Source of the DNA: a virus
Direction: 5' to 3' (one strand)
Length of the DNA: 37,827 bases
Virus record (IMG/VR): IMGVR_UViG_3300008450_000149
Location: 1 to 37,827 of that record
In this document: in pieces, positions 31,298-34,475 of the stretch
How the letters are laid out: each line of letters opens with the position of its first letter
How positions within the stretch are numbered: the first letter of the stretch is position 1
Notes under the pieces: model-generated
What the model was told of the DNA's origin: nothing
Databases searched by the model: none
Seen by the model: only the letters and a program-made list of their open reading frames with translations
Made by a program: the position numbers and the translations under genes

Positions 31298-32648
31298 CCT
31301 CAGAATTCCCCCGCACTCGATTGACGCCGAAGCTGCGTTCCTGTCTGCTGTGTTTGAGCGGAATACGCTGATTGAGGATTGCGAACAGATTCTAAAGGAG
31401 TCTGATTTCTACAACGGCGCACACAAGGTTATCTACCGGCGAATGTGCGCGATGGCTTTTGCAGGCCAGCCAATTGACCCTATAACGCTTTGCACGGCCT
31501 TGGAGTCAGCAGGCGAGGCACAGGCAGCTAGTTCCCCTGATTACGTCATACAGCTCGCTACAGAAGGACGTGGCGCACATAACGCGATGCACTACGCTAA
31601 GATTATCAGCGAACGGGCAATGGATCGTGACTTGATTTCCAAAGGAGTGATGATTGCCGACCTTGGTTATTCAGACGGCGATCCACTGAGCAAGCTGGAC
31701 GAAGCGCAAAAGATTATGATGGAAAGCGGGCCTTCGTTTGATTCTGAAGTGCAAAGCGGAAATCAGGTATTGCAGGAGACGCTGAAGGAAATTCAACGGT
31801 TAGCATCGCTTCAGGGGGCATTGAGCGGCGTTGCTTCCGGTTACACTGACTTGGACAAGATCACTAACGGATTTCAAGCGGGCGACATGATTGTGGTGGC
31901 CGGGCGGCCCTCGTCCGGGAAAACCACGTTTGCCATGAACTGCGCCGAGGCGGCGATTGACGCGGGTGAATTGGTGCTAGTGTTTAGCCTGGAAATGCCA
32001 GCCCGTCAGCTAATGCTCAGAATGATTTCAAGCCGTGGCCGCATACCATTGGAGACAATCAAGCGAGGCAATGGCGAGGAACAAGACTATCAGCGAATGA
32101 CAGCAGGCGCGGCGAAGATCAAAGACCGGCCAATATACATTGACGACACATCCAGCCTGACTTCCGAAAGACTCCTGAGCAGGGCAAGGAAGCTGCAAAA
32201 GAAAGCCGGGAAGAAAATCGGCATGATAATCATCGACTACCTGCAACTGCTGGCCGACAAGGGCGAAGGCGTGGACAGGGTGACGAAGATAAGCCGGAAC
32301 ATGAAACTTCTTGCCAAGGAGATTGACTGCCCGGTACTTGCTCTTTCTCAGCTATCACGAAAGTGTGAGGAGCGCGGCGACCAGAGACCGATTAGCTCAG
32401 ACCTTCGAGACTCTGGAGCAATCGAGCAAGACGCCGACTTGATCATCATGGCTTACCGTGACGAAGTGGTGAACAAAAACAGCCAGATGCCGGGCGTGGC
32501 TGAATTCATAATCAGGAAACACCGAAACGGCGAATTGGGCACTGTTTACCTAAAAAGTAACTTGCATATTTGCCGGTTTGATAATAATCTCAACTACATG
32601 CCGCCTACCGAATTACCGACCGGGCGCAAGTATAGGAGCATGGATTAA
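31290..32648 (+). CDS. dnaB: Replicative DNA helicase (DnaB family)
   Basis: A 452-aa hexameric helicase that unwinds DNA at the phage fork. The N-terminal domain begins PPHSIDAEAAFLSAVFE (residues 7-23). RecA-type domain: Walker A GRPSSGKTT (205-213), FSLEMPARQLMLRM (about 230-243), Walker B MIIIDYLQLL (about 313-322), SQLSRKCEERGDQRP, SDLRDSGAIEQDADLI, and the final FIIRKHRNGELGTV. All features are complete. It overlaps the DUF1376 gene, its probable loader, and the NinB gene. Confidence 0.95.
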   Translation: MDNLRIPPHSIDAEAAFLSAVFERNTLIEDCEQILKESDFYNGAHKVIYRRMCAMAFAGQPIDPITLCTALESAGEAQAASSPDYVIQLATEGRGAHNAMHYAKIISERAMDRDLISKGVMIADLGYSDGDPLSKLDEAQKIMMESGPSFDSEVQSGNQVLQETLKEIQRLASLQGALSGVASGYTDLDKITNGFQAGDMIVVAGRPSSGKTTFAMNCAEAAIDAGELVLVFSLEMPARQLMLRMISSRGRIPLETIKRGNGEEQDYQRMTAGAAKIKDRPIYIDDTSSLTSERLLSRARKLQKKAGKKIGMIIIDYLQLLADKGEGVDRVTKISRNMKLLAKEIDCPVLALSQLSRKCEERGDQRPISSDLRDSGAIEQDADLIIMAYRDEVVNKNSQMPGVAEFIIRKHRNGELGTVYLKSNLHICRFDNNLNYMPPTELPTGRKYRSMD

Positions 32649-33085
32649 TGGCCGACATTAAGCGCAAAATAGACGACATGGCCGGAGCTGCTGCTGCAAT
32701 GCCGTGGATACAGCAAAACATCATAAACGGGCTGAAGTCGGGGCCGGTAATTGTATCTCTTGGGCGCGAAACAAGATCAGGGGAGCAGAATAACCTCCTT
32801 TGGGCGCTCCTGACCGACATATCCAACCAAGTGACTTGGTTCGACAAGAAACACTCACCCGAAGCGTGGAAAGACATTATCACAGGGTCATTCAAGGGCG
32901 CTGAGTTTGTGCCGAATATCAACGGTGACGGGTTTGTGCTGCTTGGAATGCGAACATCCAAGATGGACAAGCCCACGTTTTCGGCGCTGGCGGAGTACAT
33001 ATTTGCGTTTGGCGCAGATCAATCCGTGGCATGGTCAGACCCATCCCTGGCGGTATTTGAGCAGTACCGGGAGCATAAAGCGTGA
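32648..33085 (+). CDS. ninB: NinB/Orf-like recombination protein
   Basis: A 145-aa protein matching NinB (lambda Orf), a mediator that helps load RecA or Red-beta type recombinases onto SSB-coated DNA. The family pattern is seen in RSGEQNNLLWALLTDISNQV followed by KKHSPEAWKDIITGSF and ALAEYIFAFGADQSVAWS. It is one of the genes shared with the lambda nin region, and stands between DnaB and the methyltransferase with four-base overlaps on both sides. Confidence 0.88.
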   Translation: MADIKRKIDDMAGAAAAMPWIQQNIINGLKSGPVIVSLGRETRSGEQNNLLWALLTDISNQVTWFDKKHSPEAWKDIITGSFKGAEFVPNINGDGFVLLGMRTSKMDKPTFSALAEYIFAFGADQSVAWSDPSLAVFEQYREHKA

Positions 33086-33906
33086 GGATAGACAATGCCA
33101 TTAACACAATGCACCTTTTTGCAGGAGCTGGAGGAGGATTGCTCGCAGACCTTATCCTCGGACACAAACCAATTGTTGCCGTTGAATGGAATCCATACGC
33201 TTGCAAAGTCTTGCGGGAGCGATCACAAGACGGATGGTTTCCAGGCTTGCAAGTGTGGGAAGGTGACGTCAGGATGTTTGATCCATCCGAATACGCCGGA
33301 CAAGTGGATTGCATTCATGCGGGATTCCCTTGCACAGACCTTAGCAGCGCTGGAAAGCAAGCTGGTATCGGCCCGGAAACAAGATCGGGGCTTTACCGTG
33401 AAGTCTTGCGAATTGCTGGGGTATTGGGACGACCAAAGCTATTCTTGGAAAACGTCACAGATATCCTTTCTCTCGGACTCGGAACCGTCATTGCAGACCT
33501 TTCCTCGATGGGGTATGTGGGGAGATGGATGTGTATACAAGCATCCGATTTCGGGGCAAACCACGAACGTGACAGATGGTTTTTGTTTGCCACTACTAGC
33601 GACACCAACGGCAACGGCCAATCAGCTTTCCCCGTCAATGATGAAACACAAAGGGTGTCGAAATCTGGCGCGGGAAATGCTGCCGACTCCAACGGCTCAC
33701 AATTCCAAAGAGGGGGCATATCCATCGGAGCATTTGAGGAACACTCCAACTTTGGCGGCTGTGCTTGGTGGAAAGATAAACCCCCAATTCACGGAGTGGA
33801 TGATGGGGTGGCCAATAGGTCACAGCGCCTTAAAGCGATAGGAAATGGCCAGGTTCCGCTGCAGGCTGCTTTAGCTTTCCGAATCCTAAGCGAGGGGCTT
33901 CTATGA
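33082..33906 (+). CDS. C5-cytosine-type DNA methyltransferase
   Basis: A 274-aa Dcm-like enzyme that would methylate phage DNA against restriction. Motif I HLFAGAGGG (11-19), motif IV GFPCTDLS with catalytic C84, motif VI ENVTD (123-127), motif VIII HERDRWFLF (161-169), then a variable section (175-230) and the motif IX-X ending GVDDGVANRSQRLKAIGNGQ (238-257). PCTD replaces the usual PCQ. It starts with GTG 33082 (GGGAG upstream) overlapping the NinB stop; ATG 33109 is an alternative. A second reading frame, open through nearly the whole gene, has its own good ribosome site and family-like motifs. Confidence 0.87.
   Translation: MRIDNAINTMHLFAGAGGGLLADLILGHKPIVAVEWNPYACKVLRERSQDGWFPGLQVWEGDVRMFDPSEYAGQVDCIHAGFPCTDLSSAGKQAGIGPETRSGLYREVLRIAGVLGRPKLFLENVTDILSLGLGTVIADLSSMGYVGRWMCIQASDFGANHERDRWFLFATTSDTNGNGQSAFPVNDETQRVSKSGAGNAADSNGSQFQRGGISIGAFEEHSNFGGCAWWKDKPPIHGVDDGVANRSQRLKAIGNGQVPLQAALAFRILSEGLL
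33095..33841 (+). CDS. Nested gene in +1 frame of the methyltransferase, family-like motifs
   Basis: A 248-aa frame lying completely inside the methyltransferase gene. ATG 33095 has GAGGA six bases upstream, better than the methyltransferase site. The product shows segments typical of a phage protein family usually annotated as methylase-associated: WIAFMRDSLAQTLAALES, CELLGYWDDQSYSWKTSQ, LQTFPRWGMWGDG, two LPTPTA / LATPTA blocks, and the C-terminal GGKINPQFTEWMMGWPIG. Those motifs (WPTPTA..., NPxFVEWLMGxPxGWT) are recognised from knowledge of the family, so the frame is probably used. Function unknown; a methylase specificity or partner subunit is possible. Confidence 0.68.
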   Translation: MPLTQCTFLQELEEDCSQTLSSDTNQLLPLNGIHTLAKSCGSDHKTDGFQACKCGKVTSGCLIHPNTPDKWIAFMRDSLAQTLAALESKLVSARKQDRGFTVKSCELLGYWDDQSYSWKTSQISFLSDSEPSLQTFPRWGMWGDGCVYKHPISGQTTNVTDGFCLPLLATPTATANQLSPSMMKHKGCRNLAREMLPTPTAHNSKEGAYPSEHLRNTPTLAAVLGGKINPQFTEWMMGWPIGHSALKR

Positions 33907-34475
33907 GAAAATGCCGCCACTGCAAGTCCGAGCTGCCAAGTATAAAGAACTCTGATACATGGGAGCAGGCAGGATTTTGCACTAAAGATCACTACTGGCA
34001 AGCGGAGTTAGAAAAGAAGGCGCACAAGCCTGCAAAAGCAAAGCCAAAGAAGCCAAAGGTTAAGAGCATCGCCCAGGAGCTAGACGCAGCCGCTGTTCTA
34101 TGCCAGCGCATGGTGCGCCTCAAGGCTGCTGACGATAACGGATATTGCAAGTGCATCACATGCGGAGTGTCGAAGCCGTGGCATGAAATGCAAGGCGGGC
34201 ACTTCATTGAGCGCGGGAAGAAAGCAACAAAGATTGATGAAACCAACGTACACCCCCAGTGCCAACAGGATAATGCTTGGGGAATGAAAAACTCAAGCGT
34301 AGTGCTGATATATAGGCAGGCAATGGTAGATATGTACGGACAAGATTACGTTGAAGAATTGATAGCAAGGTCAAGGCAGCCTTTTAAGCCAACTAGAGAA
34401 TGGATAGCCGAGCAAGTAGAGTATTTCAAAGAGCAGATAGACTTCCATGAGAAACGACTAGGGGTAAGCAAGTGA
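33903..34475 (+). CDS. ninG: NinG/Rap recombination nuclease
   Basis: A 190-aa NinG (lambda Rap) protein, a structure-specific endonuclease for D-loops and Holliday-like joints. N-terminal CRHCKSELPS zinc site, KSIAQELDAAAVLCQRMVRL, YCKCITCGVSKPWHEMQGGH with the zinc and nuclease residues, HPQCQQDNAWG and the basic C-terminal helix. All typical sections are present. It overlaps the methyltransferase by four bases and extends the NinB-type recombination set. Confidence 0.92.
   Translation: MRKCRHCKSELPSIKNSDTWEQAGFCTKDHYWQAELEKKAHKPAKAKPKKPKVKSIAQELDAAAVLCQRMVRLKAADDNGYCKCITCGVSKPWHEMQGGHFIERGKKATKIDETNVHPQCQQDNAWGMKNSSVVLIYRQAMVDMYGQDYVEELIARSRQPFKPTREWIAEQVEYFKEQIDFHEKRLGVSK

Follow-up and report, generated by a model that had tools for sequence, protein, structure and literature searches.

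Background

The closest described counterparts of the phage locus reported here are C5-cytosine methyltransferases in which two polypeptides make up one enzyme, namely M.EcoHK31I (YGGCCR) and M.AquI (CYCGRG). The two genes of M.EcoHK31I also overlap in different frames. Its large subunit carries motifs I-VIII and X, and motif IX resides on the smaller polypeptide (PMC3404938). In M.AquI, the beta polypeptide bears motifs IX and X. A protein hidden in another frame of phage methylase genes is likewise known from the ShiLan domain, an out-of-frame HNH element that represents a mobile insertion (PMC11855218). A non-canonical motif order occurs in the circularly permuted C5 methyltransferases of the M.BssHII type, which run IX, X, I-VIII (PMC5944983). 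Our literature search, of partial coverage, turned up no description of phage methylases with a beta gene nested in this way.

The locus studied here consists of two genes, designated A (alpha) and B (beta), and compares with each of these systems to a different extent. Its likeness to M.EcoHK31I rests on the motif layout described in PMC3404938: A shows the large-subunit pattern, with motifs I-VIII and X and no motif IX-like block. The recognition domain of M.EcoHK31I is predicted in the large subunit (PMC3404938), whereas in our case conserved recognition-like blocks are found in B and the corresponding region of A is linker-like; moreover, our pair is a phage gene in a nin region. The pair may work like M.EcoHK31I, but as the recognition domain is placed differently we do not count it as an ordinary representative of that type. 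In contrast to M.AquI, motif X stays in A; an M.AquI-like partition occurs in the actinophage relatives RemusLoopin, phiBT1 and Samy. Unlike the ShiLan domain, B overlaps with the coding sequence of the catalytic core and shows no match to endonucleases. The M.BssHII order also differs from that of a natural single-chain relative (L028, see below), which runs I-VIII, X, recognition blocks, IX.

The locus and its two reading frames

The window, i.e. the whole analysed stretch of 37,827 nucleotides from an IMG/VR virus record, contains A with a GTG start and 274 amino acids, and B with an ATG start, 248 amino acids and an offset of +1; B's ATG lies 13 bases downstream of A's GTG and the overlap amounts to 747 bp (Table 1). 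A's GTG overlaps the stop codon of ninB as GTGA. The first-pass annotation had described both frames with this offset, the 248 codons and the 747-base overlap, the GAGGA six bases 5' of B's ATG, and the blocks SYSWKTSQ, LQTFPRWGM, LPTPTA and EWMMGWPIG in B, all of which we recovered from the sequence. It had also pointed out that the same bases (33782-33841) code for both C-terminal motifs, and indeed they are read once as the EWMMGWPIG end of B and once as GVDDGVANRSQRLKAIG of A.

Table 1. Positions of genes, candidate ribosome sites and protein blocks in the window
Feature	Position	Strand	Evidence
A (alpha), putative C5-cytosine methyltransferase catalytic subunit, motifs I-VIII and X	33082..33906	+	PF00145, phrog_363, HhaI-like fold
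B (beta), +1-frame nested gene, recognition-like and motif IX-like blocks	33095..33841	+	stop depletion, excess conservation, phrog_1008
GGGAG, possible ribosome site of A, eight bases 5' of GTG	33069..33073	+	sequence
GAGGA, putative ribosome site of B, six bases 5' of ATG 33095	33084..33088	+	sequence
B block SYSWKTSQ	33437..33460	+	kept in B relatives; z 10-18 across region
B block LQTFPRWGM	33491..33517	+	P137, G140 near-invariant in B
B block LPTPTA, the second PTPTA block of the two, in a recognition-like region	33680..33697	+	P197, T198, P199 near-invariant
B NPQFTEWMMGWPIG, motif IX-like block	33779..33820	+	windows with z=32 and 24; directly precedes motif X in single-chain relatives
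A residues 187-244, linker predicted to be disordered, replacing recognition domain	33640..33813	+	AlphaFold pLDDT mostly <50
A residues 246-270, motif X helices (RLKAIGNGQVPLQAALAF)	33817..33891	+	ordered in model; motif X-like end in 96/100 A relatives
ninB, upstream neighbour	32648..33085	+	PF05772, 4.1e-29
ninG, downstream neighbour	33903..34475	+	PF05766, 5.7e-10

Evidence for a nested gene

Judged from the sequences, B can be regarded with near certainty as a genuine protein gene, open and conserved far past what A explains. One could object that B is a shadow of A, i.e. an untranslated frame kept open by the protein conservation and base composition of A, because alternative frames of conserved genes look conserved and shuffled versions of A still reach 109 +/- 16 bits with a B profile. 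However, the +1 frame of the window scores 259.8 bits with that profile, from which the window and its nearest relatives had been left out, and the +2 frame of the window gives no score.

The distribution of stop codons was compared with expectation by shuffling A's synonymous codons within each gene in 100 sequences of less than 70% identity. In these 100 divergent pairs, 35 stops in the +1 frame against 131 expected were observed at codons 5-75, 6 against 211 at codons 75-165, and 16 against 100 in the C-terminal part; the +2 frame showed no stop depletion in the same test. As many of the 100 loci had been found through B, 19 genes found through A only were tested separately, and here the corresponding values were 6 against 24, 0 against 40 and 2 against 18. 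Chance opening of the B frame was ranked low: when the synonymous codons of A were shuffled, the longest +1 run had a mean of 95 codons, and 249 codons were reached in 0 of 1000 shuffles.

Beyond being open, the second frame is conserved in excess of the constraint from A, which is what distinguishes a nested gene pair. Between the window and each of 24 relatives, the +1 similarity was above all 300 shuffles in every pair. Among distant pairs of these 24 the excess is located in the middle and C-terminal segments (z ~1 in the N-terminal segment); the first ~75 residues of B are depleted in stops but show little extra conservation in distant pairs. A +1 profile of 47 sequences with less than 60% identity yielded z=10-18 at SWKTSQ-RWGM and z values of 32 and 24 in the EWMMGWP region, compared to a +2 maximum of 7.9; exact z and p values throughout are inflated by shared ancestry, while effect sizes and controls are clear. 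Among the controls, 65 bacterial C5 methyltransferases had 879 stops in the +1 frame against 883 expected. A B signal was present in four of them, all from four genomes chosen for holding B, and the remaining 61 canonical enzymes gave none (z at most 2.4).

The start of B provides a further line of evidence. In half of the relatives A opens with NTG-AAT-GAG, which places B's ATG four bases past A's start, and the Asn2 codon of these relatives is AAT in 50 cases and AAC in one, compared to a ratio of 301:528 in the rest of A (p=4e-20). This codon bias indicates that B's ATG is under selection in the relatives; the window itself falls in the other half, which does not have this start. Selection on B's start codon, the null results for the +2 frame and for canonical methyltransferases, and the occurrence of B-type sequence that does not overlap (in L028 and in split genes of actinophages) leave next to no room for the shadow explanation.

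Three tests had been named together with the original claim, namely whether homologues carry stops throughout the +1 frame, whether independent proteins match B, and whether there is excess conservation at synonymous sites. The outcome of each favours B, and the claim of two functional genes that overlap almost wholly, with a real and conserved +1 product, is upheld.

Distribution among phages and prophages

A tblastn search with B alone retrieved 26 viral contigs, and in this first relative set nearly all members have both frames open over the overlap, with B identities of mostly 24-57%. An alignment-based search extended the B relatives to at least 514 viral contigs and 122 genome contigs. 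B overlaps A in the +1 frame at 270 of 271 loci, a count that weighs less than the stop and conservation tests because the sequences used to train the B profile were themselves overlapping ones. The arrangement is common to hundreds of phages and prophages. The overlap stands as first described, but the first description was incomplete in that the arrangement is common among phages and has a biochemical precedent in M.EcoHK31I.

The probable catalytic subunit

A matches PF00145 (3.1e-30, profile positions 2-191) and phrog_363 (2.9e-50). It possesses the AdoMet-binding and catalytic motifs I-VIII of the PF00145 family, including FPC and ENV, and does not unite a recognition domain with both motifs IX and X in a single chain: motif X is present and a motif IX-like block is absent. 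The statement in the first-pass annotation that A carries all motifs is thus incorrect, since it is B that contains the motif IX-like block.

The AlphaFold model of A predicts an HhaI-like core (~residues 8-180, most blocks with pLDDT >90), a gap at residues 187-244 with pLDDT mostly <50, and ordered motif X helices. The top PDB matches of A are M.HhaI and M.HaeIII, of whose 324-327 residues ~175-190 are aligned. The gap falls where the recognition domain and motif IX of C5 methyltransferases are situated (layout: PMC3404938, PMC5944983). Conservation of A is weak there (columns 169-192), and just past these columns, at 193-204, B is the better conserved frame, with 3.08 compared to 1.69 for A. 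Following the model, A would thus have no small domain, and the predicted disordered gap lies where B is conserved best.

The predicted nested product

B matches phrog_1008, labelled 'DNA methyltransferase', at 2e-20, and the same profile is matched by all 57 of the 57 B relatives scanned; the profile includes a motif X tail (positions 289-318, matched by A's motif X) that is absent from B. Comparisons of B with Pfam, NCBIfam and PDB sequences were empty or gave chance matches. Its AlphaFold model is poor (pLDDT 62.6, pTM 0.28), although local confidence is higher at residues 68-97 and in the C-terminal helices, and a Foldseek search of the model against PDB was empty.

Of 100 pairs, 92 have a W[LMVI]MG block in B, a count biased by the fact that some loci were found through this very block, and a single one, the fused L028, has it in A; a motif X-like end is located on A in 96 of 100. 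In Gordonia phage Neville gp75 and Mycobacterium phage Aggie gp53, the same block directly precedes motif X within the methyltransferase frame, and B's block aligns with this tail with 96% probability. Canonical methyltransferases of the control set have a motif IX resembling ECARLMGFP. The best profile-profile alignment places LMGWP of B on the canonical motif IX and IGNGQVP of A on motif X with a non-significant E of ~0.1, hence the motif IX identity in B is deduced from pattern and position. A search with the actinophage IX-X tail against PDB gave no methyltransferase match. B had earlier been regarded as a methylase-associated protein; that it is a conserved protein is borne out, but as something unrelated to the enzyme it is less well described than as its second subunit.

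Natural fusions, splits and exceptions

One contig (L028, 1616-2716) possesses a single frame with motifs I-VIII and X, followed by the B-type HTPTTMANYSAKSMMKHKGCRNF and AEWLMGFPIG, which is the motif order that an alpha-beta fusion would give. Its +1 frame contains 21 stops against 21.9 expected, and the excess of B signal is z=0.0. The overlap thus appears not to be maintained once the B-type module is supplied in frame, which supports a two-subunit reading. A search for further fusions of this kind returned this single contig only.

In the Streptomyces phages RemusLoopin, phiBT1 and Samy, A ends after motif VIII and the B frame runs on through IX and X, and the mycobacteriophages Twister and TiroTheta9 have a similarly split methyltransferase. 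In the actinophage loci L004, L272, L273, L276, L283 and L285, the methyltransferase is distributed over two genes that overlap or adjoin each other, with motifs IX and X on the second; the usual annotation is two 'DNA methylases'.

A number of single-chain enzymes complicate the picture. In Neville and Aggie (L286, 1341-2270; L284, 534-2693), motif IX is part of the A frame, and yet a long +1 frame that matches B's middle is retained (z 5.2 and 6.4). The C5 methyltransferases of the Gram-positive phages Javan349, D7138 and Lenus (L289, 1009-2088; L290, 1006-2232; L291, 1138-2322) combine an in-frame motif IX with an open +1 run that is 142-165 codons long (shuffle P at most 0.001) and weak B-like similarity around NWGTMxNG. 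E. coli dcm and the enzyme of a Klebsiella phage lack such a run. These +1 runs raise the possibility that the middle of B predates or exceeds a role in recognition, and they would agree with B being a real nested but separate accessory or regulatory protein, next to an A that is a complete methyltransferase alone. Nevertheless, we consider such a separate role of B beside a complete A unlikely, given that the recognition region of A is predicted to be disordered and is weakly conserved, that the motif IX-like block is missing from A in all but the fused relative, and that L028 unites both modules in one protein, whereupon the overlap is gone.

Programmed ribosomal frameshifting, by which the N-terminal part of A and the C-terminal part of B would be joined in one chain, is brought to mind by Aggie, in which a single frame spans the catalytic part through IX and X, and by the locus L025 (2096-2916), in which A is broken by a small indel beside a G run and its N-terminal part shares the frame of B's C-terminal part. 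This indel may be a sequence error, a mutation or a slippage site, but it looks like one of the first two. B has a ribosome site of its own and an ATG that is selected for in relatives, and in this family motif X is kept in frame A and is not part of B, all of which makes frameshifting very improbable.

A probable two-subunit methyltransferase and its implications

Both frames are real and constrained, the motif IX-like block is in B and motif X in A, a domain is missing from A, and one natural fusion exists. The locus is therefore most probably a two-subunit C5-cytosine methyltransferase whose beta gene lies almost wholly within the alpha gene in the +1 frame. Alpha would bind AdoMet and perform catalysis through motifs I-VIII and X, having neither a folded recognition domain nor a motif IX-like block, and beta would provide the recognition blocks and motif IX. 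As B has its own start 13 bases past that of A, one mRNA can give both subunits. They may assemble to a solitary phage methylase, which probably shields phage DNA from host restriction; the translation of B and the assembly, activity, specificity and biological role of the enzyme are what we infer from this evidence. As to its origin, a single-chain ancestor might have undergone one frameshift ahead of the recognition region, compensated by a second ahead of motif X. The two-subunit reading leaves unexplained the single-chain, motif IX-bearing enzymes with a B-like +1 run.

A bolder proposal, possible but on balance doubtful, has two parts. On the one hand, a specificity subunit would be encoded inside the gene of its catalytic subunit across a large phage and prophage family, with starts few bases apart, so that recombination could not separate catalysis from recognition and both would co-evolve base by base. 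On the other hand, the +1 protein would be older and more widespread than the arrangement of motif IX, and in methyltransferases that bear motif IX themselves it would serve an additional function.

A near-complete overlap on the same strand with hundreds of natural variants constitutes a large data set for the evolution of overlapping genes, and the products of the two constrained genes resemble the halves of a single enzyme. If the subunit model is true, alpha cloned alone (e.g. in codon-optimised form) loses beta and would yield a dead enzyme, and predictions of specificity from alpha would be made on the wrong protein. Annotations of phage methylases commonly miss or mislabel a subunit, and records usually annotate one frame only of the pair.

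At the loci L001 (2687-3187) and L002 (2302-3066), SOVA965 calls the B frame a 'DNA-cytosine methyltransferase' without a CDS for A, and S72 annotates A only.
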